38,294 bases of DNA from positions 1 to 38,294 of the forward strand of contig CAKZVB010000098.1 of NCBI GenBank assembly GCA_937922015.1, given 5' to 3'. Source of the stretch: an uncultured Granulosicoccaceae bacterium. Lineage in GTDB: Bacteria; Pseudomonadota; Gammaproteobacteria; Granulosicoccales; Granulosicoccaceae. The notes under the pieces were generated by a model. The model had not been told where the DNA came from. It worked only from the letters and a program-made list of their open reading frames with translations, and did no database searches. The position numbers and the translations under genes are program-made. Positions 641-15,758 of the stretch are shown piece after piece. Numbering within the stretch: the stretch's first letter is position 1; each line of letters opens with the position of its first letter.

Positions 641-1258
641 TCACACCGACTTGCTCAGCGGCTGGTAAACAAAACGATACGTCAGCCAGCCGAGTAACCA
701 GCCACCTGCAATGTCGATCAGTTGATGCTGTCTGATCAGGACCACTGACAGGACAATAATCAGCATCCACACAACAGCAATAGTTGACCACGCGGTGTTC
801 GCTTCCTGATTTGCGATCGCCAGCAAAATTAACGTGCTGTAGGTGATGTGTAGTGACGGGAAAAGGTTGTGCGGAAGTGCCAGGGTATAGAGGATACCGT
901 ACAGCAGTTGCGGTTCCGGCAGCATCGCCGGCCGTTGATGTGCCAGTTCGGCTGGAAGGACGAAATATATCGCGCCTGCTACTATCGTCGCCGTTACAAA
1001 AGCCACACAGAGCGCGCGAATCTGACGCTCAGTCAGTGAGCACAGCGGCAACAGAAACAGTAAAATGACGGACAGATAGCCATAGATAAAACCCGGGATG
1101 AATGGCAGCTGGACCTCCCAGTCCAGGTACAGTCGCACTTTTTCTGGTCGCTGTGCCGTCCAATAGTTAAGCACGCCGTACACGAGCGCAAAGGTAATGC
1201 CGGCGACCAGATAGTATCCGGCATTTTTTTGTATCTTCTGGATTGTGGGTAATTGCAC
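641..1258 (-). CDS. PAP2-superfamily membrane phosphatase/phosphotransferase
   Basis: This is a 205-residue polytopic membrane protein with about six hydrophobic segments. A PAP2-type signature is visible: PSLH at residues 134-137 in a short loop, then R-x-H-x3-D (R176, H178, D182) leading into a last helix. These match phosphatase domains 2 and 3 of the superfamily (PSGH and SRx5Hx3D), with S-L-H in place of S-G-H, the variant typical of the inositolphosphoryl-ceramide-synthase-like (Aur1-like) branch. The first motif, KX6RP, is not obvious; QRP at 108-110 is a candidate. Members dephosphorylate lipid phosphates or transfer head groups at the membrane. The start is GTG at 1258. It is transcribed divergently from the Rieske operon across 156 bases, so it may be co-regulated, but its membership of that pathway is unproven. 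Confidence 0.75.
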   Translation of the reverse strand: MQLPTIQKIQKNAGYYLVAGITFALVYGVLNYWTAQRPEKVRLYLDWEVQLPFIPGFIYGYLSVILLFLLPLCSLTERQIRALCVAFVTATIVAGAIYFVLPAELAHQRPAMLPEPQLLYGILYTLALPHNLFPSLHITYSTLILLAIANQEANTAWSTIAVVWMLIIVLSVVLIRQHQLIDIAGGWLLGWLTYRFVYQPLSKSV

Positions 1259-1414: not shown

Positions 1415-2464
1415 TTGCTAAAAGATTATTGGTACATCGCCTGTAAGGCCGCTGACATTCAGCGTGGGCCAGTAGCATTTACGGCCTTCGAGCAGCCGCT
1501 GGTGGCGTTTCTAGGCCGCAACGATAAGCCTGCGGTGTTAATTGACCGTTGCGCTCATCGCAATGCACCCTTGTCTGAAGGGGCCGTGCGCGAGGGTCTG
1601 CTGGTGTGTCCTTATCACGGCTGGTCATACGACACCGACGGCTCGCTGGCAGTGCTTCCGGTTTGTCCGGCAAGCAGTGCTGCCACAACTCCAGTCAGCA
1701 CAGATGCGACAAAGACAGCTTCTATCAACATAGCCGTGGACTCGTGGCCCTGTGTCGAGCAAGACGGCTATATCTGGTTTTGTCTGTCACATCAGCCGGC
1801 CACTGAAAAACCTCAGCCATTTGCGCACATGCAGGAGCCCGGCTGGACTTCTTTCACAATGGATACCTTGTTCGACGCACCGGTAGACACTTGTCTGGAG
1901 AATTTTCTCGATTGCCCGCACGCCACCTTTGTCCACCGTCACTGGTTTAGAACACCGACGCTAAAACAGGTTAAGGCGGAGGTTCGCATCAATTGGGACG
2001 GTGCAGAAGCAGAATACTTTGATGAACCCAGAGAGCAGAGTGTTGTCTGGTCGCTGTTGACCAGAAAAAAATCTACCATGAGGCATATCGACCGCTTTAT
2101 TGCACCGGCAACCAGTCGGGTAGACTACGATTTTTCGGACAGCCGGTATTACGTTATTACCTCGAGTTGTACGCCGGTAAACGAAACGCAAACGCGTGTG
2201 CACACGGTGGTTACCTTTCGCTTTGGATCTTTTGGCAGGCTGGTTAGATTCTTCTTCAAGCCGCTGTCGATGCGAATTATTAAACAGGATGTTGAAATAG
2301 TCAGGCAACAACAAGCCAATATCGATCGTTTCGGTGGCAGGCGATATAGAGTGATACCCCAGGATCTTTTATATCGGCATATTGTGCAGTGGCGAAACAG
2401 CATTGAAAAAGGCGAACCATTGCCATCAGAGGCGCCACCTGAAACCATCAACCTTGTTCTATAG
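1415..2464 (+). CDS. Rieske non-heme iron oxygenase (VanA-like), first gene of the biosynthetic operon
   Basis: 349 residues, the usual size of single-component-type Rieske oxygenase alpha subunits. The N-terminal Rieske domain has C46-x-H48 and C65-x2-H68 (CAHRN...CPYHGW), the ligands of the [2Fe-2S] cluster. The C-terminal catalytic domain shows N163/D166/H169/H174 (ENFLDCPHATFVH), matching the mononuclear-iron site and the bridging Asp. The family hydroxylates, demethylates or desaturates with O2 and electrons from a reductase; no reductase or ferredoxin gene is nearby. The start is TTG at 1415: an in-frame TGA at 1391 leaves no ATG, and the protein begins right at the family's conserved W-Y start region. 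The next gene overlaps its end. The substrate is unknown. Confidence 0.88.
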   Translation: MLKDYWYIACKAADIQRGPVAFTAFEQPLVAFLGRNDKPAVLIDRCAHRNAPLSEGAVREGLLVCPYHGWSYDTDGSLAVLPVCPASSAATTPVSTDATKTASINIAVDSWPCVEQDGYIWFCLSHQPATEKPQPFAHMQEPGWTSFTMDTLFDAPVDTCLENFLDCPHATFVHRHWFRTPTLKQVKAEVRINWDGAEAEYFDEPREQSVVWSLLTRKKSTMRHIDRFIAPATSRVDYDFSDSRYYVITSSCTPVNETQTRVHTVVTFRFGSFGRLVRFFFKPLSMRIIKQDVEIVRQQQANIDRFGGRRYRVIPQDLLYRHIVQWRNSIEKGEPLPSEAPPETINLVL

Positions 2465-3110
2465 CTTTTACTTGCAAAGATTAATAACAATCTGTGTGGT
2501 AACCATGATCATGCTGGCGATTGGTTTTCACTATCTGCAAAATAGCGGAGCTATCAAAGGCGGGTCTGTACCTGCGGTCAAGACGGCATGGCTGTTCACT
2601 GTGTTGTTTTACTGGTATGTGCTGCCTGCGATCTACAGCGCTGACAAATCACTACCGACAATGGTCAGGCAGTTATTTGCCGTAGTGCTGATCAATATGA
2701 TAGTGCGCGCACTAGTTGAACTACCTATGATGTATGTAACGCAAACATGGCTGCACATCTACGGAATTGGTCATGATATTTTCAGTGCCTTGTTGTGTCT
2801 GGCCATCGGCCTGATGTTGATGTCGCCGGGTTTATTGTCGGTAGTGTTAAGATCACAGGTAGCAAAAAAACAAGGCACAACCTTGCCAGGCTGGTTGCAT
2901 GGCTACTTCATTTTCAGTGCATTTTTGTTTTTGATGGAAGCCGTGTTTGCCAACTATTTGCGCAATGTCACCGGTGCCGATGGAAAAATATTTTTTCTGC
3001 CAATGGAGTCATCGCACGGGCTGATGCTTAGCATCACTGCTGTGGTGGTGGCAACAACCTGGGGTGTTATCATTTACCAGATGAGACAGTGGCATGAGCC
3101 GCGCACTTAG
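2454..3110 (+). CDS. unrecognised polytopic membrane protein
   Basis: A hydrophobic protein of about 200-218 residues with about six predicted membrane segments. Short charged loops contain AKKQGTT and a C-terminal MRQWHEPRT tail. I see no catalytic motif and do not recognise a family. The start is uncertain: TTG at 2454 would overlap the preceding Rieske stop by 11 bases and suggests coupling, while ATG at 2505 or 2511 gives a slightly shorter protein; none has a strong ribosome binding site. The 3' end overlaps the following gene by 17 bases. Its position between an oxygenase and acyl-transferring enzymes suggests a membrane partner, anchor or transporter for the pathway, which is inference from context only. 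Confidence 0.7.
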   Translation: MFYSFYLQRLITICVVTMIMLAIGFHYLQNSGAIKGGSVPAVKTAWLFTVLFYWYVLPAIYSADKSLPTMVRQLFAVVLINMIVRALVELPMMYVTQTWLHIYGIGHDIFSALLCLAIGLMLMSPGLLSVVLRSQVAKKQGTTLPGWLHGYFIFSAFLFLMEAVFANYLRNVTGADGKIFFLPMESSHGLMLSITAVVVATTWGVIIYQMRQWHEPRT

Positions 3111-3870
3111 AGCTCAAATTCAGACGCTTGATCACCTGGCGCCGGGCATTGAGGATGGTATGTTTGCCATTTACAACCGCTACTATGAGGCCACATCACG
3201 GCAAAGATTTCTCGCCGATCTCAACTGCAAAACGCACGTTGTGCTGTTGTTTGATGAGCAGAACCGTATTCGCGGTTTCAGCACAATAGCCAGATATTTT
3301 CACACTATGGTCAGCCCGTTAAATATACCGGCAACCGTACAGGTGCTGTTTTCCGGTGACACCATCATTGAACACGATTACTGGGGGCAACAGACGCTGC
3401 CGATTGCATGGATAGAGCAGGCGGGCCGGTTTAAAGCTCAACACCCGGATCTTCCGCTGTATTGGTTGCTTATTGTTAAGGGATATAGAACATACCGCTA
3501 TCTGTCGGTGTTTACGAAAAAATACTACCCGGCCGCACCCGAGCTAACATCAGAGTGTGCAAGAGATGATACGGGTAAGGATTACCCGTCGATAAATTTG
3601 CAATCTTTGTCGCATGGACTGGCAAGTGAAAAATTTAACAAGGCCTACAACAAAGATACAGGTTGTATTGTATTTCCGGAATCTCATGGGCATCTTGCTG
3701 AAGGCTGGGCAGACATTCCGGAGCGGGTAAAATCACGGCCTGAGGTGGCCTACTTTCTGGCGCGAAATCCAGGCTTTCATCTCGGACACGAATTAGTCTG
3801 TCTGACAGAGTTGTGTGCGGACAATCTGACACGTCGCGCGCGTACCGCGTTTGAACGCGGATTAAGCTGA
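3094..3870 (+). CDS. GNAT-like (acyl-CoA N-acyltransferase fold) protein
   Basis: 258 residues, soluble. The N-terminal two-thirds has the strand/helix rhythm of a GNAT fold: a beta strand with bulge-like RIRGFSTIARYF (about residues 57-68), a long strand VQVLFSGDTII, and a following segment HDYWGQQTLP in the place where the acyl-CoA pyrophosphate loop (R/Q-x-x-G-x-G/A) normally sits. The loop is degenerate, so the assignment is tentative. It starts at ATG 3094 inside the preceding gene and ends TGATG, sharing bases with the GH3 gene start, so it is probably translationally coupled to it. Pairing with GH3 suggests it handles the same acyl or amine substrate. A non-catalytic relative is possible. 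Confidence 0.6.
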   Translation: MSRALRAQIQTLDHLAPGIEDGMFAIYNRYYEATSRQRFLADLNCKTHVVLLFDEQNRIRGFSTIARYFHTMVSPLNIPATVQVLFSGDTIIEHDYWGQQTLPIAWIEQAGRFKAQHPDLPLYWLLIVKGYRTYRYLSVFTKKYYPAAPELTSECARDDTGKDYPSINLQSLSHGLASEKFNKAYNKDTGCIVFPESHGHLAEGWADIPERVKSRPEVAYFLARNPGFHLGHELVCLTELCADNLTRRARTAFERGLS

Positions 3871-5477
3871 TGCAGGATGCCTGGTTAAAAATTGCCGCGC
3901 AAACGAAATCAACACATCAGCGGCTGCTGCACGCCTGTATGAATGTGCGCAATAGCCAGAACGATATTCTGGCAGATCTTCTAAAAGATAACCGTACTAC
4001 TGACTTTGGTCGACGCTACGGATTTGAAGACATACTAAATGCAGATAACCCGCTGCAGGCCTTTCAGGCGCAAGTGCCGATACAAACTTATGATTCAATA
4101 GAGCCCTATATGCGTTCACAAATGAGCGGCGAGAAATCGCTGCTTGCGGAGTCGGTATTATTTTACGAGCCTACCGGCGGCAGCAGTGGCGGCAGTAAGT
4201 TCATCCCGTACACACCGGCCGCCCTGCGTTTACTGCAAGCCGCTGTTGAACCCTGGTTGTTTGATTTAATAGACTCCCGGCCTGCGTTGTCGCGAGGGCC
4301 GTCCTATTGGTCGGTGAGCCCCGCGATCCGTAGCGATAATTGCACTGAAGATGGTACCCGTATCGGCGCGGGTTCTGATCTGGAATTTCTGCGGGACGAT
4401 TTACAGGCGCATTTCTATGCCACTATGGTGAATGCGGAGGCTATAGCTCAGGCGACTGACTACCAGCACTGGCAACAGCTGACCTTGTTAACCCTGCTGA
4501 TGAATGAAAACCTCAGGTTGATCTCGGTATGGAGCCCTTCGTTTCTGACCACATTGCTCAGGTCCCTGCATGTGCATAGAAGCTGGCTGTCAAAGACTCT
4601 GGACAATCCGGTGGCGGCCGGGCTTGGTGCGATAGAATGGCTGGGGGATCCCGTCCAAAACCAACAAGCCATTGATCGGCTGCAAGCGTCGTTGTCAGTG
4701 ACCGGAGCAGACCTGCCGGTGTCGACCGCAATGCTTTGGCCGAAGCTGGATACCATCAGTTGCTGGACACACGGACCTGCCGCAGGGCCGGCGGCCGGGC
4801 TGCAGCAATGGTTCCCTGAAGTTACTATTCAGCCCAAAGGGCTATTGGCAACAGAAGGTGTGGTGACGATACCGCTCTCGTACACAGCCTGGCCGGTACT
4901 GGCGGTACAAAGTGGTTTCTTTGAGTTTGTTGATAGCTCGAACCAGATAGTGCTGCCGGAAAACCTGACCAGGGGCGACTATCGTGTTCTGATCACCAAC
5001 GCCTGCGGGCTGTACCGCTATGACATAGGCGATCAGGTGCGAATGCACGGGATGTACAAGCAGGCACCGATGCTCGAATTTACAGGGCGAACCAGTAACA
5101 CCAGTGATCTGGCGGGTGAGAAACTTGAAGAATCATTTGTCAGTGCCTGCCTTAGGCAAATTCCGGGTTTGAGTATTCTGGCCCCGGCCGGTAGTCACTA
5201 TTGCCTGTACATTGACCATAACCCTGAGACAGATCAGCCTGAACTCATCAATAATCACGCAACTGAACTGGATACGCGCCTGTGCAACAACCCTCAGTAC
5301 CGCTACGCACGCGAACTGGGTCAACTGCAGCCTGTACAATTGCGCCGTATACCTGATCTGGCCGCGCTTCATATCAAATGGCAAACTGACAAAGGACAGG
5401 TGATCGGTGATATCAAGCCGGTGGCGCTCTGCACCGACACAGCCTTCATTGCGTATCTGGAAAAACAGCGCCAATGA
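3870..5477 (+). CDS. GH3-family acyl-acid amido synthetase
   Basis: 535 residues, close to the usual GH3 length. GH3 enzymes belong to the adenylate-forming superfamily: they activate a carboxylic acid with ATP and, in characterised plant members, join it to an amino acid. The ATP-binding motifs are present: PTGGSSGGSKFIPYT at 101-114 (phosphate loop), ATEG at 327-330 and YRYDIGD at 382-388. The small C-terminal domain follows to residue 535. The acyl substrate cannot be read from sequence. It overlaps both flanking GNAT-like genes (TGATG upstream, ATGA downstream), so the three are likely made in fixed ratio and may act together in forming an acyl amide or activated acyl adenylate. GH3 proteins are best known from plant hormone conjugation; bacterial members are mostly uncharacterised. 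Confidence 0.9.
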   Translation: MQDAWLKIAAQTKSTHQRLLHACMNVRNSQNDILADLLKDNRTTDFGRRYGFEDILNADNPLQAFQAQVPIQTYDSIEPYMRSQMSGEKSLLAESVLFYEPTGGSSGGSKFIPYTPAALRLLQAAVEPWLFDLIDSRPALSRGPSYWSVSPAIRSDNCTEDGTRIGAGSDLEFLRDDLQAHFYATMVNAEAIAQATDYQHWQQLTLLTLLMNENLRLISVWSPSFLTTLLRSLHVHRSWLSKTLDNPVAAGLGAIEWLGDPVQNQQAIDRLQASLSVTGADLPVSTAMLWPKLDTISCWTHGPAAGPAAGLQQWFPEVTIQPKGLLATEGVVTIPLSYTAWPVLAVQSGFFEFVDSSNQIVLPENLTRGDYRVLITNACGLYRYDIGDQVRMHGMYKQAPMLEFTGRTSNTSDLAGEKLEESFVSACLRQIPGLSILAPAGSHYCLYIDHNPETDQPELINNHATELDTRLCNNPQYRYARELGQLQPVQLRRIPDLAALHIKWQTDKGQVIGDIKPVALCTDTAFIAYLEKQRQ

Positions 5478-6580
5478 GTCGTTATCGTTTTGCTTTAGCC
5501 ACTGAAGAAGACGACGACGCGCTTCGTCACCGTATGACTCAGGACATCATGGAAGGGCCGATTTCGGTCAGCTTCAGGCGCGAGCCAGGCTACTTTGCGG
5601 GTTCGCTTTTACAAGGCGCGCAGACGCAGGTAATCACCTGTACTGATCAACTATCGAATACCATAGTAGGGATCGGAACAAGGGCAACTCTGCCAACCTA
5701 TATAAACGGTAGTGTTGCACGCACAGGTTATCTCTGTGATTTGCGCGGCGATGCCAGTGCGCGTGGTGGATTATTACTGGCACGCGGTTATCGTTACCTG
5801 AAGCAGTTGCATGAAGCCGATCCGCTGCCACTGTATTACACAATGATTCTCGACGGCAACGAGAAAGCCCTGGAACTTCTTGGCAGTGGCCGCGCCAATT
5901 TGCCATGCTATCGGGCGATGGGGAGAGTTAATACACCGGCGATATTATTCGGCCGTAAAAGAAAATTTAAATCAGATCCATCGCTGCACCTTGGTACCCC
6001 GCAACCTGCCGACATGGAAGCGGTGTTGTCTTTTGTTAATCGCTGCAATCAGCGCTACCAGTTTGCCCCGGTATTTGATCTTGGTGATTTTAACAACGGG
6101 CGTCTGGCCGGTTTAAGCTGTGAAGACTTTACCGTTGCCTGGTGTGGTAACAAAATCACCGGTGTCACGGCCTGTTGGGATCAGCGTGCAACGCGACAGA
6201 TCCACATTGAAAAATACTCTGCTGCGCTGAGAGTTGCTCGTCCCTTATACAACCGGCTGGCAAATATTATCGCCTACAAGCCATTGCCATCGGTGGGGCA
6301 GTCACTGGCATGTGTATACCTGAGTATGGTTGCCATTGAAAATGACGACGCTACTGTTTTCAGTAATTTGCTGGAACACATTTACGCAAGCAGACGCAAC
6401 GGCCCGTGGCAAATGTGTTTTGCCGGCCTGCATGAAGATCACCCGTTGAACCGTGTTCTGGATGGATTTCGACAGATCAAAGCGGCCGGGCAATTATTCG
6501 CGGTACACTGGCCGGAGGACCAATATGCCTTTGATCAGTTGGACCGGCGAATCCCACATGTTGAGGCAGGAGCACTGTAG
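5474..6580 (+). CDS. GNAT-family acyltransferase-like protein
   Basis: 368 residues. The N-terminal half resembles a GNAT domain: a beta strand (NTIVGIGTRATLP, about residues 58-70), then TGYLCDLRG and the segment DASARGGLLLARGYRYL (about 93-109), which fits the acyl-CoA-binding turn and helix better than the equivalent in the upstream GNAT-like gene. The C-terminal half appears to be a second, more diverged GNAT-like domain (GVTACWDQ, then helix), so it may be a tandem-domain protein. It starts with ATG overlapping the GH3 stop and ends three bases before the next ATG. Likely role: acyl transfer to an amine in the GH3 pathway (inference). Two distinct GNAT-like genes flank GH3 directly, which is unusual. 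Confidence 0.7.
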   Translation: MSRYRFALATEEDDDALRHRMTQDIMEGPISVSFRREPGYFAGSLLQGAQTQVITCTDQLSNTIVGIGTRATLPTYINGSVARTGYLCDLRGDASARGGLLLARGYRYLKQLHEADPLPLYYTMILDGNEKALELLGSGRANLPCYRAMGRVNTPAILFGRKRKFKSDPSLHLGTPQPADMEAVLSFVNRCNQRYQFAPVFDLGDFNNGRLAGLSCEDFTVAWCGNKITGVTACWDQRATRQIHIEKYSAALRVARPLYNRLANIIAYKPLPSVGQSLACVYLSMVAIENDDATVFSNLLEHIYASRRNGPWQMCFAGLHEDHPLNRVLDGFRQIKAAGQLFAVHWPEDQYAFDQLDRRIPHVEAGAL

Positions 6581-6583
6581 CTC

Positions 6584-9391
6584 ATGGTGACGATAGAACG
6601 ATTTCCGCAACTGCGTGATCCACGAATACCGGTTGCGCTGATATTATTCAGCTATCTGGTACTTGGCGTTACCACGCTCGGTTTTAATCGCAGCCCGTTG
6701 CAGATGCTCTTTGTGATTGCGATGGCCTGCAGCATTGATGTGCTGCTCTATCGTTTGGTTAACCGGCAGTGGCTGTTTCCGCTTAGCGCACTTATAACGG
6801 GTATGTCCCTGAGTATCTTGGTGAACTACGCACACGGCAGTCTATTGCCTGTAATACCGGTCTTTATGGCTATCGCTTCAAAGTACCTGATTACCTACCG
6901 TGGCCGACACGTCTACAATCCGGCCTTGTTTGGCATTGTCTCGGCGTTGTTGCTGGGTGGCAGCATGATGAGTGTGTCGCCGGCTTATCAGTGGGGTGGC
7001 TATCCGGCAATTGCCATGTTCATTGTTACCGCTGCCATCGTAACCTTTGTTCTAAAAATAAACCGGTTGGTTCTGGTGTTTTCCTTCCTTGGATTCTACA
7101 CCATTGCGTTGTGTGTTCGAGCCTGGCTTACACAGCACCATGTGCCCCCGCAGGTGTTGTTTATGGGGGCGTTAACGGCGCCGGCATTTTATCTGTTTGT
7201 TTTTTTCATGATTACCGATCCGGCTACTTCTCCGGTCAGCAGACGCGCGCAGTTTTTCGCCGCCTTTGCCATTGTCAGCATCGATTTTTATCTGCACACG
7301 CTTGAAAGCCTGTATACGTTTTTCTATGCCGCATTCATCTTTTTCTCGCTGCGGTTTGCCTGGCTGCACGCCAGAGACTGGTTGTCGGACCCTGTAAACC
7401 GGGTAGCACCGCTGGCGGCCATGAAACGTCTGGCTTGTGTGGTCTTGCTGGGTGTAAGTGGCTGGTTCTTTTCGCAGCAGTTGCAGGTGTTTGATCTGAA
7501 GAGGTCGCTCGATTTTAGACTCGTTTCAATTCCCGTAAGTCAGTCTGGACTGCAGGCCTCTGATGGTAAGGTGTTGTCTTTGGTTGACTCCAGAATTCAA
7601 CACATCGCCAAATGGGTTTTATCCGTTGGCGATGCGGTCGCTGTTGCCGACTACGATAACGATGGTCTTCAGGATATATTCCTGACTTACCCTTTAAAGA
7701 ACGCCGAACAACGCGGGGCGCTGTACAAGAACCTTGGTGAGTTCAGGTTTAAGCGTATTGATCTGCCAGCTATCACTGAAAGAATGGCAGACGAGAGAAG
7801 CGGTCTGCCGTCAGCGGCATTATGGTTTGACTATGATAACGATGCCGACGTCGATCTGTTTATTGGTATGGGCTACGGCAAAAACCTGTTGCTGCGTAAT
7901 AATCTGGCGGAAACCGGGCGTGCAGAATTTACCGATGTATCAACGAGTGTTGGCCTTGACGACTACTCCGTTACATTGACGGCCAATGCCTTCGATGCAG
8001 ACAATGACGGGCGTCTGGATTTACTGGTGGGCAACAGTCTGAATCCCTGGCTGCCTGACTACCCGGTGCCGACGAAACTCAATATATTCGATTTACCGCA
8101 GGCCGCCGATGAAGAAGATCGCCGCATGTTTAATTTTATGCACCGAACCTGGCACGATGCTGATAATGGTGGCGAAAATTATTTCTATAGCTACAACGGT
8201 AAACAATTCGAAAAACAGACAACAACGGCATCGGGCCTGAGCGGACACCGGTGGACAATAGACATTGGCACCGGCGATCTCGACAACGATGGTGACACGG
8301 ATCTATACCTTGCCAATGACTTTGGACCCGACGAGCTATTTCTAAACAGCGGTGGTCATTTTTCTCGCAGTAAAGGGCGGTTTTCCGGCGAGGCGGGTGC
8401 GGATACCTACAAGGGTATGAATGCCTCGGTTGCCGATTTTGACAACAACGGTTCCCTCGATGTCTATGTTTCAAATGTCCATGAGGCTCTGCAGGCCGAG
8501 GGCAGCCTGTTGTGGATGAACGATGGCAGCATGGCATCGTCGGGATGGCGTGCGTTAAGCGATCAGGCCAGTAGCAAAAACGCATTGAATGAACGCCGTT
8601 TTGGCTGGGGCGCTACGGCGGCTGATCTGAACCTCGATGGTCGGCAGGATCTGCTGCAGGCAAACGGAATGGTTGGTGATAAGTACGATAGTTTGTACGA
8701 AGGCTGCCCTGACTACTGGTATTGGAATGATCAAATTGCGCTCACCGGTCCCGACATACATGGTTACGCCGATCAGTGGGCCGATTTGCGCGGGCGCTGT
8801 ATATTCCCCGATGAGCCAGACCGTGTTATGTTGAATGAAGGACGTTATTTTGTTGATGTGGCAGCCGCCGCAGGCTGGCTGAATCACGATTCATCCCGAG
8901 GTATTGCTACCGCTGATTTTGACAATGACGGAGACCCTGATGTCATCGTTACACACCAGTTCAGTGAAGCGGCAATATATAAAAATGTCGCGAGCCATGA
9001 TCACCACTGGATAGGATTTGATCTTGTCGGCGATGGCCGCAGTTGCAATACTGATGCAATAGGCAGTCGGGTAACTATCACTCCAGTTAAATCAGATGAT
9101 CCTGCTGTTGATAGCGGTGACTGGACACAGCAAATCAGAGAGGTTGTCGCAAGCAATGGGTTTTCCTCGCAGAATGATTCACGGTTGCTGTTCGGGCTCG
9201 GTGAATACTCCGGATTGATCAATGTACTGATGAGCTGGTGTGGACAAACCCCCCGCGATTACCAACTGGCACCTGATCAATACCATCGCTTGCAGCAGTC
9301 GGCGCATATGGCCAAATTCGATGCAAAGCCATCACGGTTGACAGTACCGGTAACCCCTCTAACTTCAGAGTATCAAGTTGAATTACGCTGA
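6584..9391 (+). CDS. RnfD/NqrB-like membrane domain fused to VCBS/FG-GAP repeats and ASPIC/UnbV domain
   Basis: 935 residues in three parts. Residues 1-about 300 are eight to ten membrane helices resembling RnfD/NqrB, the flavin-carrying subunits of ion-pumping Rnf/Nqr complexes: TYRGRHVYNPALFG and the hallmark FFMITDPATSPVSRRAQ are visible. The Thr that carries covalent FMN in RnfD (SGAT motif, just before this segment) appears replaced (APAF), so the flavin may be absent. From about 350 to 790 there are seven Ca-loop repeats of the DxDxDG type (DYDNDG, DYDNDA, DADNDG, DLDNDG, DFDNNG, DLNLDG, DFDNDG), typical of a secreted beta-propeller. Residues about 805-905 match ASPIC/UnbV, as in CRTAC1-like proteins. 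The propeller is probably periplasmic. Its role in the operon is unknown. Its stop overlaps the next start. Confidence 0.8.
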   Translation: MVTIERFPQLRDPRIPVALILFSYLVLGVTTLGFNRSPLQMLFVIAMACSIDVLLYRLVNRQWLFPLSALITGMSLSILVNYAHGSLLPVIPVFMAIASKYLITYRGRHVYNPALFGIVSALLLGGSMMSVSPAYQWGGYPAIAMFIVTAAIVTFVLKINRLVLVFSFLGFYTIALCVRAWLTQHHVPPQVLFMGALTAPAFYLFVFFMITDPATSPVSRRAQFFAAFAIVSIDFYLHTLESLYTFFYAAFIFFSLRFAWLHARDWLSDPVNRVAPLAAMKRLACVVLLGVSGWFFSQQLQVFDLKRSLDFRLVSIPVSQSGLQASDGKVLSLVDSRIQHIAKWVLSVGDAVAVADYDNDGLQDIFLTYPLKNAEQRGALYKNLGEFRFKRIDLPAITERMADERSGLPSAALWFDYDNDADVDLFIGMGYGKNLLLRNNLAETGRAEFTDVSTSVGLDDYSVTLTANAFDADNDGRLDLLVGNSLNPWLPDYPVPTKLNIFDLPQAADEEDRRMFNFMHRTWHDADNGGENYFYSYNGKQFEKQTTTASGLSGHRWTIDIGTGDLDNDGDTDLYLANDFGPDELFLNSGGHFSRSKGRFSGEAGADTYKGMNASVADFDNNGSLDVYVSNVHEALQAEGSLLWMNDGSMASSGWRALSDQASSKNALNERRFGWGATAADLNLDGRQDLLQANGMVGDKYDSLYEGCPDYWYWNDQIALTGPDIHGYADQWADLRGRCIFPDEPDRVMLNEGRYFVDVAAAAGWLNHDSSRGIATADFDNDGDPDVIVTHQFSEAAIYKNVASHDHHWIGFDLVGDGRSCNTDAIGSRVTITPVKSDDPAVDSGDWTQQIREVVASNGFSSQNDSRLLFGLGEYSGLINVLMSWCGQTPRDYQLAPDQYHRLQQSAHMAKFDAKPSRLTVPVTPLTSEYQVELR

Positions 9392-10343
9392 CATAGCACA
9401 ATCCTGGTACCCGCTTGCTACCAGTCAATCACTCAAGCCGGGCACCTCGGTGCAGGTCGAGGCATTCGGTCGGCGGCTGGTACTGTTTCGAACCAGACAA
9501 CGGCAGCTCGGACTGATGCAACGCAACTGCGTGCACATGGGGGGTGACCTGAGTCAGGGAGCTGTGACTGATACTGGTATACGTTGTCCGATCCACAGCT
9601 GGGAGTTCTCAACCACTGGACAAATCACCGGCAATGCAAGATCGGACACAGGCAAAGCAAAATCCCCCTGCCAGACGGCCATCGTGTGTCAGGAAGCCAA
9701 TGGCGTTATACACGGCTACTTTGGTGATTCACCCGCTTTTGACTTGCCTACCGCACCAACGCCGGTGCTGACATCATCCGTATACACTTCAGATGTCCCT
9801 ATGCGCTATGACATACCGACTATTTTCGGCTTCGATACCGAGCATTTTGAAACCGTACACAAACGTGGCGTAGATTCACTAACAGTCTACCAGAATCACA
9901 AAGTTCATCTGGGCGCACGTGTACACGCCAGTGTCAACGGCCGGCGTTTCGGTGATCGTATAATGCGCGCCCTGGGTATGCGCAGCATTGAGCTGGATAC
10001 GGATTTCTGGGCCGCTAATATTTTATTTGGACAACACAGGCAAACCAATACCTTCGTTTTTATCTCCGGTATGCCTGTCAGTGAACACCTGACCCGGGTT
10101 TATGCATCTGTGATGCAGGAGCGTCCGTCCGGTGGCGTGGTAAAACAGCTAATCGGTCGGCTGCGTTTTGCGATGGCCAGGCCGGTAATACGTGCATTTA
10201 TTTCACAGGATGAAAATGCACTGTCGGGTGTGAGGTTTGATCCTGAATCACCTTATATTCTGTATGACTCCGCCATATACCAATGGCTTGATCATTATAA
10301 AACGCTGCCTCGTCTGTCGGACTGGCGTGCAGAAGAAAAATGA
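9378..10343 (+). CDS. second Rieske non-heme iron oxygenase (distinct subfamily)
   Basis: 321 residues. The Rieske cluster ligands are C51-x-H53 and C70-x2-H73 (CVHMGGD...CPIHSW). The catalytic iron site is D153-x2-H156-x4-H161 (GFDTEHFETVH). Sequence around the cluster and the aromatic-rich segment after it differ clearly from the first Rieske gene, with CPIHSW instead of CPYHGW, so this is not a recent duplicate; it looks closer to the KshA/DAF-36-like group that acts on sterol-like or other hydrophobic substrates, though that placement is uncertain. The start is TTG at 9378, overlapping the previous stop by 14 bases; the stop overlaps the next ATG (ATGA). It needs an external electron donor that is not encoded in the operon. 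Confidence 0.85.
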   Translation: MNYADIAQSWYPLATSQSLKPGTSVQVEAFGRRLVLFRTRQRQLGLMQRNCVHMGGDLSQGAVTDTGIRCPIHSWEFSTTGQITGNARSDTGKAKSPCQTAIVCQEANGVIHGYFGDSPAFDLPTAPTPVLTSSVYTSDVPMRYDIPTIFGFDTEHFETVHKRGVDSLTVYQNHKVHLGARVHASVNGRRFGDRIMRALGMRSIELDTDFWAANILFGQHRQTNTFVFISGMPVSEHLTRVYASVMQERPSGGVVKQLIGRLRFAMARPVIRAFISQDENALSGVRFDPESPYILYDSAIYQWLDHYKTLPRLSDWRAEEK

Positions 10344-11311
10344 AGCGCACTTTGTTTCTCAGTGCGGTCGGTGACCGGGTCCGTCTTAGCCGGCAGGCAG
10401 GCGAATTATCACAGCGGTACAGCGATCAGTTGCCGACGACGGCACAATTGAAGTCACTTGCAGAACAATATGATTTAAATACAGCAACGCTGGTGCTGGA
10501 GCAGTGTCTGCGCCACGATGTGCGGCATGGTGATTTCATCAGACAGGTTGAGCAGTCTGCACTGACGACATCGATAATTCACAAGCCACCCCGGCTGGTG
10601 ATCGTGCCCGGGCTCTATTACAAAGAGCATCCGGGCCTGGGCGGGGACGCCAATCTTATTTGCCAGATCGCCAGACAGTTTGGCATTGATGCAGAAGTAG
10701 TACCCACCAGAAGCCTGGGGAGTATTGAGGAAAACAGCGATATTTTGCATCACTATCTGCAGACCCGTAGCAGCGAGCCTTTCTGGCTGGCTTCGATAAG
10801 CCGGGGTGGCGCTGAAATTAAATGGCTACTATATAAACACACTACTGCAAGTTACCTTAAGAATTTACAGGGGTGGGTAAGCGTCAATGGCATCGTATGC
10901 GGTACCAGAGTGTTTGACAAAGTCCGGGAGAGCATTCTAATGCGGGGGCTGTTTCGTGCCATGGCGAGGCTCAATCGCATAAATCCTCTGCTGGTTGACG
11001 AGTTACACCATTCACGTAATCAATGGGCTGATACCCTATTGCCGGAGAATACTCAGTATATAAACGTTATTTCACTGCCCATGGATTGGGATATTACCGC
11101 ACCGGTACAGTCCCGCTACAAGCAGCTCTCACAGTACGGGCCTAATGATGGTGCAGTCGTATTAGGGGACTATTTATCAGAACCCGGATTGTGTTTTCCG
11201 GTTGTCGGCGCGGATCATCTAATGCGTCAGAGCAACCTTTCCACTATTTTTTATCGGCTTATAAATCATCTGCTGGTGAACCCGTCCCGCACTTCGGAAC
11301 AGAGAACATGA
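10340..11311 (+). CDS. alpha/beta-hydrolase-fold protein
   Basis: 323 residues. After an N-terminal helical region (1-80) an alpha/beta hydrolase core begins at RLVIVPGLYYKEHP (about 85-98), giving the oxyanion-loop strand. The nucleophile elbow is SISRGG (152-157), with S154 as the likely catalytic Ser and Ser instead of the usual first Gly of GxSxG. A late acid candidate lies in PMDWDITAPVQ, and GADHLMRQ provides the catalytic His. Substrate could be an ester, thioester or lactone; acyltransferase activity is also possible. The gene begins in an ATGA overlap with the second Rieske gene and ends in an ATGA overlap with the next. No signal peptide, so cytoplasmic. Confidence 0.78.
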   Translation: MKRTLFLSAVGDRVRLSRQAGELSQRYSDQLPTTAQLKSLAEQYDLNTATLVLEQCLRHDVRHGDFIRQVEQSALTTSIIHKPPRLVIVPGLYYKEHPGLGGDANLICQIARQFGIDAEVVPTRSLGSIEENSDILHHYLQTRSSEPFWLASISRGGAEIKWLLYKHTTASYLKNLQGWVSVNGIVCGTRVFDKVRESILMRGLFRAMARLNRINPLLVDELHHSRNQWADTLLPENTQYINVISLPMDWDITAPVQSRYKQLSQYGPNDGAVVLGDYLSEPGLCFPVVGADHLMRQSNLSTIFYRLINHLLVNPSRTSEQRT

Positions 11312-11907
11312 AAAGCGTTATAATTTTTTCACTATCGATAGCTGCATTCTTCCACAACAGCGTTTTCGCGCAAAATACCTATGAATCCGAAAGACAGGAG
11401 CTAAGGCAGCTGCTAAAGGTGATAGAAGACGGTATTAATGATAAGAGCGTCTCAGCCATTGAGCCCTATGTTAAGCCCAATACCGTCATGGTGTTTCAGG
11501 ATGCAGTCGTGACAAAAGGCATTGAGGAATTTTCGGACTATTTCGGGCGTATACTCGGCGCTGGTGATGCATTGATAACTGAAATGTCAGTTAAGGCGAC
11601 CATTGGAGCTCCGGCAGAATTCTATGGTGAAAACGTGGCGGTGGCGTTTGGCAAGCTTGATTCTACCTACACACTCAGAACCGGTAAAACTATTGATCTG
11701 GAAACGCAATGGACCACCACAGTGGTCAGACAAGCAGACACATGGAGCATTGCGTCGCTGCATTTTTCAAACAACCTGTTTAACAATCCCATCCTCAACA
11801 CAAGTAAACGATTAAACTGGATAATGGCAATAGCCGGTCTGTTGCTTGGTTTGTTGCTGATGTGGCTTTTCAAAAGACTTACTCGCAGGTCTGTAAGGCA
11901 GGATTGA
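11308..11907 (+). CDS. exported NTF2-like (SnoaL/DUF4440-type) protein with C-terminal membrane anchor
   Basis: 199 residues from ATG 11308, the start that overlaps the upstream stop. An N-terminal signal peptide (MKSVIIFSLSIAAFFHNSVFAQ) with a cleavage-like A-x-A/FAQ boundary precedes a domain of about 120 residues. That domain has the NTF2-like pattern: an N-terminal helix with DDGIND-like turn, VMVFQDAVVTKGIEEFSDYF, then strands ending WSIASLHFSNN. A C-terminal transmembrane helix (about 170-187) followed by KRLTRRSVRQD anchors it, predicting a periplasmic domain with a cytoplasmic basic tail. NTF2-like folds bind hydrophobic small molecules and some catalyse cyclisation or isomerisation. 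A periplasmic late step or product carrier is possible; none can be proven. Confidence 0.72.
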   Translation: MKSVIIFSLSIAAFFHNSVFAQNTYESERQELRQLLKVIEDGINDKSVSAIEPYVKPNTVMVFQDAVVTKGIEEFSDYFGRILGAGDALITEMSVKATIGAPAEFYGENVAVAFGKLDSTYTLRTGKTIDLETQWTTTVVRQADTWSIASLHFSNNLFNNPILNTSKRLNWIMAIAGLLLGLLLMWLFKRLTRRSVRQD

Positions 11908-11911
11908 TACT

Positions 11912-12817
11912 ATGGCAGGGCATAACATAACCGGAAAGCGACTGGACGCAGTAAATACAATACTATGTCTCGTAGTTCCCGGTAGTATGGTCGGTATGTT
12001 GTATGTCGCGTCGAATGTCGGATGGCTGGCGACTTTTGCAATCGGGTTAGTCTTTTCATTTTTGATGTTGACAAACTATGCGTTGATGCATGAGTCGGCT
12101 CACAATTATTTGCATAGTGATAAGCATTTAAATCAGCTTCTCGGGGCCGTTACCTCATGGCACTTTCCAATGTCCGGGAGTTTTCTTGCGCTTACGCATC
12201 AATTTCATCATCGCTGCAATCGTACCGACCATGAGATGTTTGATTACTACTATTCCGATGATAACAAGCTGGTAAAATTTGCACAGTGGTACGCGGTGCT
12301 GTTCGGTCTGCACTATCTCATTGTACCGATAGGCAGTCTGCTGGCGGCGATCGCGCCGGGTTTTTTCAATTTACCGGTTTTCCACAAAGCACGCTCGGCA
12401 AACAAACTATTTGCCAACATACGCGGGCGCCTGGTGTGGAGCATCAGGATAGAGGTGTTAAGCGGACTGATCTACTGGGTGATTCTCTGGCAAAGCCTGA
12501 ATCTGCATTTACCATCAGTGTGTCTCTTGTATGCGTGTGCAGGTTTTCACTGGTCCACACGTCAATATCTGACACACGCCTTTACGCCGAGAGATGTTCG
12601 CAACGGTGCGATAATCCTGCGTGCGGGAAAACTGATGCGTTTAGTGTTGCTCAACGGGAATTTCGATCTGGTCCATCACCAGAAACCACACCTGCCATGG
12701 ACACAACTGCCGCAGCACGCCACCGAGGGAGAGCCACATGTCAGTTTCTGGAAGCAATATCTGGCCATGTGGAAGGGGCCGCGCCCCAATCATGAGCCGG
12801 CACCGGTGCCCGAGTAG
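11912..12817 (+). CDS. membrane fatty-acid desaturase family protein (last gene of operon)
   Basis: 301 residues with four or more membrane helices and the three His clusters of membrane di-iron desaturases: HESAH at 60-64, HQFHH at 96-100 and HHQKPH at 255-260. These enzymes insert a double bond (or hydroxylate) in acyl chains using O2. It begins four bases after the upstream stop. The last 28 bases overlap, tail to tail, the end of the radical SAM gene on the other strand. As the only clear lipid-modifying enzyme of the operon besides the second desaturase in the opposing arm, it suggests an acyl-chain substrate. A carotenoid- or alkane-hydroxylating relative cannot be excluded. Confidence 0.85.
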   Translation: MAGHNITGKRLDAVNTILCLVVPGSMVGMLYVASNVGWLATFAIGLVFSFLMLTNYALMHESAHNYLHSDKHLNQLLGAVTSWHFPMSGSFLALTHQFHHRCNRTDHEMFDYYYSDDNKLVKFAQWYAVLFGLHYLIVPIGSLLAAIAPGFFNLPVFHKARSANKLFANIRGRLVWSIRIEVLSGLIYWVILWQSLNLHLPSVCLLYACAGFHWSTRQYLTHAFTPRDVRNGAIILRAGKLMRLVLLNGNFDLVHHQKPHLPWTQLPQHATEGEPHVSFWKQYLAMWKGPRPNHEPAPVPE

Positions 12818-14562
12818 TTATTTTTAACGGCTGTAGCCTTGTCTTTAACCATCACTACGGCCTGTGGCGGAAAATCTGCGATAGGGGTTAACGGTGAGTG
12901 TTCAATGTCCGGTGATTTCAGTGAGGTGTTTAAATCCCTGGAAAAGCGTTTATCGCACCATTTTCCTATTCGCTTTATAGCAGAGTGCAGGACGGGGTGC
13001 TGACTGATGCTCTGTTGTTGGTAGTTGAGCATATCGGCCCGTAGCGCGGAATCGTAGCGCAGTATACCTTTATAGAAAATCGCTGCATCCAGAGATACTT
13101 TGTTTATTATTAACTTTTCGCTGAGTTGCCATTGGTGCTCTGTGGCCTGAAGGCAATCCATTGTGTTGTGCTTCCAGTACGGCGAAACTGTGCGTTCATT
13201 TTGCATGGTCACCAGGCCAAAGCGTTGTCTGTTACTTTGGTTTAAAACAGGAACGTTGGCAACTCGTGTGGAGAAGGTCGCCAGAAAATGAAAATCAGGC
13301 GGATGGTTTTTCATGAAGTTGTAGGTGGCATCAATGGATTTCTGTGTTTCACCCGGGAAACCGACAATTAACGAAACCACCGTAGTCAATCCTACTCTGC
13401 GGCAATTATCCAGCGCTTGCGCGTTGCTATCTATCCGCGTTCGCTTATTCATATTGTTCAGTTGCTGCTGATCGCCGGACTCGATACCAATTTGAACCTG
13501 ATGAACCCCGGCCTTTTTCATTAGTCTTACAATAGATTCGTCGCAGAGGTCATCCGCTCTGGCGTAGCAAATCCACTTAACATTAACCTGTAACTCAATG
13601 AGTTTTTCGCAAAATTCGATCAGTCTTTTTTTGGGCATGGTGAATAAACTGTCAAGGCAGGTGATGAACTCCATGCCAATCTCGTTCTTATAGCTGAGCC
13701 AGTCCTCCGCCATCTTTGCAGCGCTCTTGGTACGAAATTTTGTATCGTCAAACAAAAAAGGGTAATTACAAAAAGAACACCGGTAGGGACAACCCCTGAC
13801 GCTTTCATAGTGAATCATTTTGTAGGTGCAGTCATGATCTATCTGAGATTGCCTCCAGTCCGGTCGCGGCAGATGATCCAGAGAGCGAGTGGGTGGCACC
13901 CCGCTATAGATAAACGTTGAAAGTGAGCGTTTTTCCAATCGTCCGGTAGGAGGTGGCTCCAGGGTATTAAAACCTGACTGTATCCAGTGACAGATCTGTG
14001 GTATCAGGTATTCTCCGTAACCAATTGCGATGAGATCTGCCAGAGAGTGACCTTGCCAGTTGTCGGCAATGGTGCTAACCATTGCTCCACCCAGAACAAT
14101 ATAGTTGTTGTCGCGATGTAGCCGCTCCAGAACGGGATCCAGTTCGCTCAGGTCTCTTAAAAAGGTGGTAGAGGCAAAAACTACGGCACAGGTGTTTAAT
14201 TTTGCTTCAATATTATTTTGACCACTAAACAGCTCGTCGTAGGTGGCAAATTCGACGGCAATACCATGCTCATGCAGAATTCCACTGAGCACAACTTCGG
14301 TGAGTTCAGGTGTATCAAAGTTCTCATTGGTTTCGAATACATGCCGTATTCTTTCATACAACGGGCTTTTGCGAACTTTCTGGCCTTTTCGATGAAGCTC
14401 GCTTAGTACCACCGGAAATGCCGTAGTAATTTTTATTTTTGTCTCAAGCCAGGTGTGTTCAGATGCCCGCCATTGGCTAAATTGTTTTTTAAGGGCAACA
14501 ACAAGTGAATGCTCTTTCAGGGTGAGAAATCCCCCGGTGATGATAAGCACCTTAGGCGGCAT
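12790..14562 (-). CDS. radical SAM protein with N-terminal B12-binding-like domain
   Basis: 590 residues. Cluster ligands C258-x3-C262-x2-C265 (RGCPYRCSFCNYPF) bind a [4Fe-4S] cluster that cleaves S-adenosylmethionine. The preceding region (about 90-200) has the Rossmann-like layout of a cobalamin-binding domain (YIVLGGAMVS, AIGYGEYLIPQ), but the DxHxxG cobalamin signature is not evident, so B12 binding is uncertain. Conserved SAM-barrel elements VQIGIESGDQ and GFPGETQ follow. Members methylate, cyclise or rearrange hydrophobic substrates. ATG at 14562. Downstream of and 61 bases from the second desaturase on the same strand, so probably one transcript. Its stop overlaps the end of the opposite operon. 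Confidence 0.85.
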   Translation of the reverse strand: MPPKVLIITGGFLTLKEHSLVVALKKQFSQWRASEHTWLETKIKITTAFPVVLSELHRKGQKVRKSPLYERIRHVFETNENFDTPELTEVVLSGILHEHGIAVEFATYDELFSGQNNIEAKLNTCAVVFASTTFLRDLSELDPVLERLHRDNNYIVLGGAMVSTIADNWQGHSLADLIAIGYGEYLIPQICHWIQSGFNTLEPPPTGRLEKRSLSTFIYSGVPPTRSLDHLPRPDWRQSQIDHDCTYKMIHYESVRGCPYRCSFCNYPFLFDDTKFRTKSAAKMAEDWLSYKNEIGMEFITCLDSLFTMPKKRLIEFCEKLIELQVNVKWICYARADDLCDESIVRLMKKAGVHQVQIGIESGDQQQLNNMNKRTRIDSNAQALDNCRRVGLTTVVSLIVGFPGETQKSIDATYNFMKNHPPDFHFLATFSTRVANVPVLNQSNRQRFGLVTMQNERTVSPYWKHNTMDCLQATEHQWQLSEKLIINKVSLDAAIFYKGILRYDSALRADMLNYQQQSISQHPVLHSAIKRIGKWCDKRFSRDLNTSLKSPDIEHSPLTPIADFPPQAVVMVKDKATAVKNNYSGTGAGS

Positions 14563-14623
14563 GGCTGACTACTTTGTGGAAAATTAAAATCAGACAACTC
14601 CCGGCTGTTCGGTAAACATGTTT

Positions 14624-15622
14624 TCAGCCCTTTTTAAGGGCAGCCGGCGCGCTTGTTTTTTTGCGGGCTGGTCTGACCAATCCCAACGGGCGGAGATCGT
14701 TCCTTACTGAGGCACTGAAAAATCCCCACAGAAAGCCCCCGTAGGAGTGGTTGCTGCAAGCGCGTGGCAGATGTTCCCAGATATTACGATGGACTTCGTG
14801 TAAATGGTAGCTTGGTACTTTAGGGTACAAATGATGTGCTAGGTGGTAGTTTTCATACAGCATTAGCCAGGCCGTTATCGGTGATGTATGAATAGTGCGG
14901 CTGGCGAGTAAAGGGTCGCCCTGGCGGCCTAATGCATGGGAGGCAAGGCCGCGAATATTGGTAAGCACGTTCATGACGAGCAGCGGCAATAACCAGTAAT
15001 GCAGGATCCACTGCTGCGGTACAGTGAGCAGGGCTGTCACGGCGACTGTTATTATTATCCCGTACTCGAATAAGATACGTTTGCGTACGTTTCTATTGGC
15101 GTGCCGCCAGGCCAGTAGCGGTATAAACAGAATATAAAGAAGCGAGCCTGCTATCAACTGCAGGTAGTAACATAACCAGACAATAAAGCGATGTTGTGTG
15201 TGCTGCTGATAGGTGCCAAAATCTCTGGCTCTGCCAAGTTCAATATGGTGATAGGTGTGGGTTAGTCTATAAGCGCTTGCTGATATCAATAGCGGCAGTG
15301 CCACCAGGAACGATGCCTGATTATTGGCTTTCTTGTTGCTGGCGAGTGTGCCATGTAAGCCTTCATGTAGAAAAAGCCCCAGGGAATTATAGGCGACCCC
15401 CATTAACAGCGTGCCGACACTTAGCAAAAGAGCAGTCATCAAGCCCGATTGAGCACTTGCTATGAAAACAAGCCCGGAACCGATCGAAAATAATATGGCA
15501 AACACAGCCACTTCAACCAGTCGCTTATGACGGCTGAGTGTATGCCATTGTAAAAACTGAGCGGCGTGTCCCTGCGATAATGTATTTTGTAACGAGCGTA
15601 GATCCGGTGCGGGAGTGGTCAT
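14624..15622 (-). CDS. second membrane fatty-acid desaturase family protein
   Basis: 332 residues from ATG 15622, chosen over an upstream TTG at 15688 because the extra residues do not look conserved. The His clusters are HEGLH at 86-90, HTYHH at 122-126 and HLAHH near residue 270 (ENYHLAHHLYPKVP). There are four to five membrane helices. It is only distantly related to the plus-strand desaturase (11912-12817): the third cluster is of the classical HxxHH form there is not. It therefore probably has a different regioselectivity or substrate. It leads a two-gene unit with the radical SAM gene, converging on the main operon. An upstream A/T-rich stretch (15623-15758) could hold the promoter. Confidence 0.85.
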   Translation of the reverse strand: MTTPAPDLRSLQNTLSQGHAAQFLQWHTLSRHKRLVEVAVFAILFSIGSGLVFIASAQSGLMTALLLSVGTLLMGVAYNSLGLFLHEGLHGTLASNKKANNQASFLVALPLLISASAYRLTHTYHHIELGRARDFGTYQQHTQHRFIVWLCYYLQLIAGSLLYILFIPLLAWRHANRNVRKRILFEYGIIITVAVTALLTVPQQWILHYWLLPLLVMNVLTNIRGLASHALGRQGDPLLASRTIHTSPITAWLMLYENYHLAHHLYPKVPSYHLHEVHRNIWEHLPRACSNHSYGGFLWGFFSASVRNDLRPLGLVRPARKKTSAPAALKKG

Positions 15623-15758
15623 TTGATTTGATATTGTCGTTGATATACTCCAGGTTACACACTGTAGACTAAATCTACAGACAATCAAAATCGAGATGTT
15701 GTTACACTGTTGTAGCGTATCGGAATATAAAGGTTCCGGACATCAAAATCCGGTGTAA

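Follow-up and report, generated by a model that had tools for sequence, protein, structure and literature searches.

Plant enzymes of the GH3 family form amides from an activated acid and an amine. In bacteria, the nearest described system to the locus reported here is the OlsH/OlsI ornithine-lipid pathway of Singulisphaera acidiphila. The available part of that report describes the GH3-like OlsH as making N-acyl ornithine in an ATP-dependent reaction without acyl carrier protein (ACP) or coenzyme A (CoA), with 3-hydroxypalmitic acid used in the assay, and the alpha/beta-hydrolase OlsI as performing O-acyl transfer (PMC12493201). We analyzed a stretch of 38,294 bases (the window), which is one contig (CAKZVB010000098.1) of an uncultured Granulosicoccaceae bacterium, in which a GH3 gene (g4) is embedded in a compact set of genes for oxidizing enzymes, acyltransferases and membrane proteins. 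As judged from gene content and order, this locus belongs to a large, rearranging family of putative biosynthetic clusters. The constant part of the family appears to be g3, a protein without a Pfam family, plus a dedicated GH3 enzyme, usually with a tandem-GNAT protein, g5. Our preferred reading, to which we assign a probability of roughly 0.6, is that the locus encodes a dedicated non-modular biosynthetic pathway, with amide formation by GH3, acylation by GNAT protein, oxidation by desaturase, Rieske and radical S-adenosylmethionine (SAM) enzymes, and last steps at the membrane.

The system extends in the window from 641 (g0) to 15688 (the end of g12), and its genes are as follows:

g0, 641..1258, minus strand: PAP2-family membrane phosphatase (Pfam PAP2, 4.9e-10), divergent from g1
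g1, 1415..2464, plus strand: Rieske oxygenase, VanA/PaO-like (Pfam Rieske 3.6e-19, VanA_C 6e-14)
g2, 2382..3110, plus strand: membrane protein without assigned family (five hydrophobic stretches; DUF6338 below cut-off)
g3, 3094..3870, plus strand: core protein without Pfam family, perhaps GNAT-like (residues fixed across relatives)
g4, 3870..5477, plus strand: GH3 acyl acid amido synthetase of a separate clade (Pfam GH3 3.5e-33, GH3_M, GH3_C)
g5, 5474..6580, plus strand: tandem-GNAT acyltransferase (profile matches of family members)
g6, 6584..9391, plus strand: RnfD/UnbU-like membrane region, FG-GAP propeller and UnbV/ASPIC domain in one fused chain (Pfam)
g7, 9378..10343, plus strand: second Rieske oxygenase (Pfam Rieske 1.4e-17)
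g8, 10340..11311, plus strand: hydrolase-like, with conserved Ser154, Asp270 and His293 (family alignment)
g9, 11308..11907, plus strand: NTF2-like domain, with a hydrophobic N-terminus and a membrane anchor at the C-terminus (CaMKII_AD at E 0.009, under the cut-off)
g10, 11912..12817, plus strand: membrane di-iron fatty acid desaturase/hydroxylase (Pfam FA_desaturase 1.8e-16)
g11, 12790..14562, minus strand: radical SAM protein near the B12-binding group (Pfam Radical_SAM 4.6e-20)
g12, 14624..15688, minus strand: second desaturase/hydroxylase (Pfam FA_desaturase 8.9e-31)

Scans of open reading frames (ORFs) and of Pfam confirmed the two Rieske oxygenases, the GH3 enzyme, the two desaturases and the radical SAM protein where the original prediction, made from this DNA alone, had placed them. 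Its bounds took in these genes, missed the PAP2 gene at 641-1258, and ended g12 at 15622 rather than 15688.

The constant part was recognized from a cluster on a Citrobacter portucalensis plasmid, where g3, GH3, radical SAM genes, g5, PAP2, a g9-type gene and a g10-type desaturase lie in one stretch; the same cluster is why the PAP2 gene of the window is counted in the set. The GH3 search gave nine plasmid-collection records in all. A g3 search of 369 genomes of the same class, a sample drawn evenly rather than by similarity and including the window's own genome, then revealed more clusters, several with nearly the same gene order as the window. Nine of these genomes carry g3 and all nine carry GH3, which occurs in 19 of the 369 overall (hypergeometric 2.9e-13, relatedness ignored). 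The first search had given 11 of 369; the hits in G067 and G235, which were short, contained internal stops, had E about 2e-4 and were absent when a profile was used, were dropped. The two genes are adjacent in seven of the nine g3-bearing genomes. In genome G213, the neighbor of g3 is a below-cut-off GH3 fragment at the end of the contig. The G346 set is divided between two contigs: g3 is with two radical SAM genes and a desaturase on one, and GH3 is with two radical SAM genes, g5, g9 and PAP2 on the other.

A g3 profile made from 13 proteins was run against genome_contigs (one genome per species), where 455 stretches fitted the pattern and 430 of them code for relatives. We named the best-scoring 80 of the 430 (loci L037-L116), a choice that is biased toward the window g3; by a 200-base probe, seven of the 80 are the same DNA as loci first reached through other genomes. 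Locus anatomy was read by applying profiles of each window gene to six-frame translations, and contig ends hide some genes. So read, the 80 loci contain GH3 in 58 cases, g5 in 41, g1 in 39, g9 in 34, g0 and g10 in 28 each, g7 in 27, the radical SAM family in 25, g2 and g12 in 18 each, g6 in 16 and g8 in 12. GH3 lies within 200 bases of g3 in 40 of the 58, and g5 homologues occur in 41 of the 58.

Among the 22 loci without GH3 in view, the genome has GH3 elsewhere in 15 cases and none in 7. We re-read 14 of the 15 genomes, excluding one in which g3 ends its contig. With a model of cluster GH3s, their best GH3s score 405-558 bits versus 89-264 bits for 14 GH3s without g3, although the model was trained on cluster GH3s, which raises their scores. 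The re-reading covered 16 regions, two of which (L164 and L165, at 271 and 286 bits) are additional GH3s of general type; two further extra GH3s, from G424 and G425, lay outside the re-read set. Genes of g1, g5 or g10 type stand beside 13 of the 14 separated GH3s, and the remaining one is on a 4 kb contig. Contig ends probably explain the separation in some, such as L038, L060 and L063; others are real separations. The genes are apart in six loci titled as cyanobacterial genera (L039, L046, L049, L051, L053 and L056). The original prediction had taken separation of the genes in other organisms as grounds for abandoning the idea of one system. Separation does occur, in G346 and the 14 genomes, and the split genes still share one genome, which favors one pathway.

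By gene order, the 80 named loci fall into these types:

Type A, 17 loci: window-like g2-g3-GH3, in most cases preceded by g1 and followed by g5-g6
Type B, 20 loci: g3-GH3-radical SAM, the last mostly a pair, then g5
Type C, 12 loci, plus 5 in which GH3 is not visible: g3-Rieske; 10 of the 12 have GH3-g1 on the other strand
Type D, 4 loci: g3-g5 and g10-GH3-g1
Mixed, 5 loci
Other loci without GH3 in view, 17

The presence of g2 in type A (17 of 17) and of radical SAM genes in type B is true by definition; g1 and g6 play no part in the definitions. Yet g1 is found in 16 of 17 type A loci versus 0 of 20 in type B (Fisher 1.3e-9), and g6 in 15 of 17 versus 0 of 20 (Fisher 1.5e-8), relatedness being ignored in both tests. 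The row g3-GH3-g5-g6 is unbroken in 12 of the 17 type A loci, and g6 is limited among the named loci to type A and the types of two related clusters. Type B loci have a radical SAM pair in 17 of 20 cases and a single gene in L075, L083 and L108, the last two at contig ends. The type C loci in which GH3 is not on the opposite strand are L043 and L116. These gene orders indicate that a module of Rieske, membrane and UnbU-UnbV proteins (g1-g2-g6) has been exchanged for radical SAM proteins between lineages. Such a swap around the core makes oxygen-dependent and radical SAM tailoring appear interchangeable on one assembly core. The conserved-neighborhood check thus bore out the earlier claim of a coherent, GH3-centered biosynthetic locus, since the set recurs in unrelated genera. 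The recurring set had been drawn as GH3, two Rieske oxygenases and a VCBS fusion gene; the constant part is instead g3 plus a dedicated GH3, usually with g5, and the oxidizing enzymes are swapped between lineages.

In a GH3 tree, 59 cluster GH3s are separate from the 14 GH3s without g3 (support 100/99), with some rows on long branches. Its loci were listed by hand: type A without L071 (unlisted) and L050 (length filter), type B without L075, L083 and L108, and L008, L026, L027, L036 and L129 added from other sources. Type B requires four changes on this tree, two of them forced by well-supported branches, and these repeated changes suggest that module exchange probably occurred more than once. 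The nearest rows to the window GH3 by tree path are from a Sedimenticola and a cyanobacterium, with 42% identity at most.

By record title, the 80 best loci come from Proteobacteria, Cyanobacteria, Verrucomicrobia, Synergistales, Elusimicrobia and others, and carriers include Accumulibacter, Gallionella and Pelagibius. Within the window's own order, g3 is in 2 of 48 genomes (one family), the second carrier (G032, locus L109) having a type D cluster. The spread over phyla and the GH3 tree together fit horizontal movement or much loss. The g3-GH3 pair of Citrobacter had no DNA match in the E. coli genomes searched, and a single-protein GH3 scan of genome_contigs found no relative. Azospirillum has g3 relatives with 26-27% identity (locus L028).

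The individual proteins were examined for conserved residues in relatives long enough to align; the catalytic and ligand roles given to these residues are those of their families. The GH3 enzyme g4 passes the Pfam cut-offs for three GH3 domains (115.6, 56.9 and 25.2 bits), and its relatives keep the motif residues T102 (56/57), T328 and E329 (57/57), and R383 and D388 (56/56). Ten PDB entries match it at E 0.01 or better, all of them plant GH3 enzymes, the best at about 1e-12. For g3, residues S87, G88, D89, T90, K129, G130 and T133 are kept in 80 of 80 relatives, and neither Pfam nor NCBIfam gave a match. One member of 61 matches each of two GNAT models very weakly (E 0.02-0.04), two members match an unrelated model as weakly, and the g3 profile aligns with the first half of g5 at 56% probability. 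Two GNAT-like proteins had been predicted: g5 is borne out through its family, and g3 is perhaps a GNAT protein, as a guess. Acetyltransf_1 is matched by 10 of 37 proteins of the g5 family (1.6e-5 at best) and not by the window g5 itself, and the two halves of g5 match PDB GNATs at 9e-4 and 2e-3.

Ligand residues are complete in both Rieske oxygenases: CxH, CxxH and D-x2-H-x4-H are found in 38 of 38 homologues of g1 and in 28 of 28 of g7. The best NCBIfam match of each is the sterol monooxygenase SdmA, far below its cut-off, and in L042 an FA_desaturase-family protein occupies the g7 position. Immediately upstream of the g1-type gene of L058 is a Pyr_redox_2/Fer4_20 oxidoreductase gene (7502-8956), a possible form of the electron supply that the window is without; an ORF of equal length (484 residues) precedes the g1-type gene in L038 and L060. 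In the g10 desaturase family, H60, H64, H96, H99 and H100 are present in 27 of 27 relatives and H255 and H256 in 26 of 26, with H68 (20/27) and H260 (7/26) variable. The g12 boxes are kept in 19 of 19 relatives; it has a GntB-type NCBIfam match (2e-20, below cut-off), and its nearest relative sits within the Kastovskya cluster L052 (190 bits). The radical SAM cysteines are conserved in 29 of 29 relatives. The best NCBIfam match of g11 is PhpK-type (9e-52, 176 bits versus a cut-off of 600), and L040, L045 and L059 contain near-orthologues at about 650 bits.

Among the remaining parts, PAP2 homologues of g0 occur in 24 of the 58 GH3-bearing loci, with P134, S135, H137, H178 and D182 in 27 of 27, and the divergent g0/g1 pair is repeated in L040 and L045. 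The fusion protein g6, present in 16 of the 58, has FG-GAP, UnbV/ASPIC and NQR2/RnfD-like Pfam domains and eight hydrophobic stretches up to residue 292. Its N-terminus scores 31.3 bits with NQR2_RnfD_RnfE (cut-off 27.7), the best stretch covering the C-terminal part of the profile only. In the plasmid collection, 59 records (for example, NZ_CP097323.1) match g6, 46 of them from Streptomyces. In the nine Streptomyces rows among the matches listed, the g6 match spans adjacent CRTAC1-family and RnfD-type or "enediyne biosynthesis protein" genes. The prediction of a hydrolase for g8 holds as to a conserved Ser/Asp/His set (Ser154 in 12/12 relatives, Asp270 and His293 in 10/10), and not as to a named family, the window g8 being without a Pfam match; g8 is in 11 of the 58 loci, some of which are partly hidden by contig ends. 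The NTF2-like call for g9, found in 27 of the 58 and hydrophobic at both ends, is backed by the CaMKII_AD match, which lies below the curated cut-off.

We also scanned additional ORFs of the clusters, namely 78 hand-chosen ones of the 104 unlabeled ORFs in 51 of the 58 loci, seven near-duplicates having been dropped. FA_hydroxylase was found 8 times, amidohydrolase 6, SDR 4, Mpo1-like 3, and P450, Asp/Asn hydroxylase and AurF-like 2 each. There were 50 families overall; among the 25 shown, many singletons resemble ordinary neighbors, such as SAICAR synthetase. An ORF of L044 (7274-9388), about 700 residues long, encodes an amidohydrolase fused to an Mpo1-like domain that scores slightly below its cut-off, and the type C loci L070, L074, L089 and L107 have ORFs of similar length.

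On the preferred reading, g4 would activate a free carboxylic acid at the expense of ATP and couple it directly to an amine, with no carrier protein involved; the acid is probably a fatty acid or some other aliphatic one. A further acyl group might be added from CoA or ACP by g5, and perhaps also by g3. The chain would be desaturated or hydroxylated by g10 and g12 and hydroxylated by g1 and g7, and g11 could modify an unactivated carbon. A role as hydrolase or O-acyltransferase is conceivable for g8, g0 may remove phosphate, and g9 and g6 may serve at the membrane or in the periplasm, in the last step or in release. The recurrent FA_hydroxylase and other additional genes, the two desaturases and PAP2 would point to a long aliphatic substrate. 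In agreement with the earlier statement that polyketide synthases (PKSs) and nonribosomal peptide synthetases (NRPSs) are missing, Pfam found no ketosynthase, condensation or carrier domain in the 18 window proteins scanned (641-21136; the part from 21301 to the end lay outside the scan). More tentatively, and at less than even odds, the clusters might define a widespread, carrier-free class of natural products or specialized lipids, in which a shared GH3-g3-g5 core is combined with either Rieske and UnbU/UnbV proteins or radical SAM pairs, so that one scaffold is tailored with or without oxygen.

Several findings weigh against the preferred reading. Seven Alphaproteobacteria (L048, L057, L064, L068, L078, L079 and L087) carry g3 without any GH3, which implies that in seven of the 80 genomes g3 also acts in another setting. 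The exchange of modules is incomplete: 7 of the 20 type B loci have a g7-type Rieske gene and are therefore not oxygenase-free, and 4 of the 17 type A loci have a radical SAM gene. Among the 18 scanned proteins, no ferredoxin or reductase was found for the Rieske enzymes. No PDB entry matches g3 up to E 1, which leaves it without a fold assignment, and no named hydrolase model matched any of 12 g8 family members. Finally, HlyD, MFS, g3, GH3, TolC-type and g5 genes stand in a row in L026 (11414-18778, Acinetobacter baumannii), a distant form in which the window profiles pick up g3, GH3 and g5 only. This row suggests that a GH3 product of small-molecule kind is exported there, and a membrane lipid fits it less well. 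The seven GH3-less g3 relatives have 40-43% identity to the window g3, and L057, L064 and L068 have neighboring ORFs of like length (about 1000 and 1120-1180 residues).

The TolC-type gene of L026 also weighs against the most serious rival, a structural membrane aminolipid rather than a secreted metabolite, that is, an oxidized acyloxyacyl amino lipid made by an OlsH/OlsI-like route with chain oxidation. The pairing of GH3 with the hydrolase-like g8 would parallel OlsH and OlsI as far as the available part of their report describes them, and PAP2, the desaturases and the recurrent FA_hydroxylase and Mpo1-like genes are in keeping with a lipid. We nevertheless regard this rival as doubtful, though worth holding in view: g4 is not OlsH (53 bits versus 620), g8 is confined to the 11 GH3-bearing loci noted above, some loci being cut by contig ends, and the patchy occurrence of g3, in 2 of 48 genomes of its own order, is unusual for a structural lipid. 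It is improbable that the genes form a catabolic set in which Rieske, desaturase and hydrolase proteins degrade a hydrophobic compound and GH3 activates the acid. Rieske enzymes of VanA/PaO type are often degradative, and SdmA is the best NCBIfam match of both, far under its cut-off, but the 18 scanned proteins include no ring-cleavage, beta-oxidation or reductase family, and PAP2, the propeller, the NTF2-like proteins and the radical SAM swap would go unexplained.

UnbU and UnbV proteins have a role in enediyne clusters, and the UnbV and RnfD-like domains of g6, both halves of which match Streptomyces-plasmid genes annotated as CRTAC1 family or "enediyne biosynthesis protein", raise the idea of an enediyne- or polyyne-like product in which the desaturases form triple bonds. 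We think this very unlikely, since g6 is absent from all but 16 of the 58 GH3-bearing loci and the scanned window proteins include no PKS. Least likely, by a small step, is that GH3 inactivates plant hormones by amino acid conjugation, as plant GH3 enzymes do. That all 10 PDB matches are plant GH3s speaks for this idea. However, carriers include Cyanobacteria, Accumulibacter, Gallionella and Pelagibius, which to our knowledge are not plant associates, and the constant partners g3 and g5 and the oxidizing enzymes would have no explanation. A dedicated biosynthetic pathway remains our preferred reading, and the original prediction as a whole is partly supported.

The ORF map agrees with the earlier description of ten plus-strand genes (g1-g10, 1415-12817) that overlap or nearly touch, with junctions from -17 to about +40 bases. 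Overlaps are 17 bases for g2/g3, 1 for g3/g4, 4 for g4/g5, 14 for g6/g7, 4 for g7/g8 and, with g9 starting at the ATG at 11308, 4 for g8/g9; gaps are 3 bases between g5 and g6 and 4 between g9 and g10. The g1-g2 spacing is about 40 bases with the ATG at 2505, a likely start, taken as the beginning of g2; the longest g2 ORF begins at 2382. On the minus strand are g11 and g12. Cytidine deaminase gene g13, g14 and the genes beyond were excluded from the system on the grounds that their families are ordinary. The source genome is a 5.0 Mb draft that is 81% complete, and the contig begins with the cluster region. Across the whole window, G+C measured in 2 kb steps ranges from 0.475 to 0.534 with no visible island, and this flat composition gives no sign of recent arrival. 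A promoter scan found 23 sites, about equal to shuffled sequences (20.1, standard deviation 4.8). Terminator-like sites in positions 1-17200 number 31 versus 18.1 (standard deviation 4.0) in shuffles, and several are within genes.

If the preferred reading is correct, g3 marks an uncharacterized pathway that probably occurs in hundreds of species and has no PKS or NRPS signature in the scanned region. It would also extend the bacterial use of GH3 beyond ornithine lipids, give UnbU/UnbV proteins a second context, and offer a natural comparison between two ways of tailoring one scaffold, oxygen-dependent and by radical SAM enzymes. The system is testable in carriers whose record titles name a strain, namely Paraburkholderia oxyphila, Sulfitobacter algicola, Massilia glaciei, Chitinimonas viridis and Budvicia aquatica.

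Among the open-license PubMed Central papers listed by searches, several of which matched far more papers, no title or abstract opening described a cluster of this set; with subscription papers and preprints beyond this scope, that is only weak evidence of novelty. Some candidate systems were rejected. The available part of the report on the Pbo cluster of Pseudomonas syringae (PMC8473136) describes a PKS/NRPS cluster and does not mention GH3 or Rieske proteins, that on tRNA-dependent peptide systems (PMC2922099) does not mention GH3, desaturase or UnbV, and the UnbV protein of P. syringae pv. tabaci is an isolated table entry in the available part of PMC2745422. As for anti-phage defense, g11 alone matches one PADLOC model (69 bits) among the 10 proteins scanned, a set that excluded g0, g1 and g10.

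Compared with known systems, the locus shares a family and conserved motif residues with the plant GH3 enzymes (JAR1, GH3.12 and kin), but g4 lies in a bacterial clade tied to g3. Like the enediyne clusters, it has both UnbU and UnbV domain types, although these are in one fused gene rather than two and no PKS is among the 18 scanned proteins. Along with five radical SAM proteins of the Citrobacter cluster, g11 matches models of B12-binding radical SAM proteins (HpnJ, TIGR04072 and PhpK), all well under the curated cut-offs. The likeness to OlsH and OlsI, as far as the available text goes, consists of a GH3 enzyme in a bacterial operon with a hydrolase-like gene (g8 here; PMC12493201), and by analogy carrier-free, ATP-dependent N-acylation is the likely reaction of g4. 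The differences are that g4 scores only 53 bits (E 2e-14) with the NCBIfam OlsH model, which has a cut-off of 620, and that the window adds g3, g5, Rieske, desaturase, radical SAM, PAP2 and UnbU-UnbV genes. The locus probably belongs with the non-modular, amide-forming gene clusters, and there is a real chance that it will form a class of its own once its product is known.

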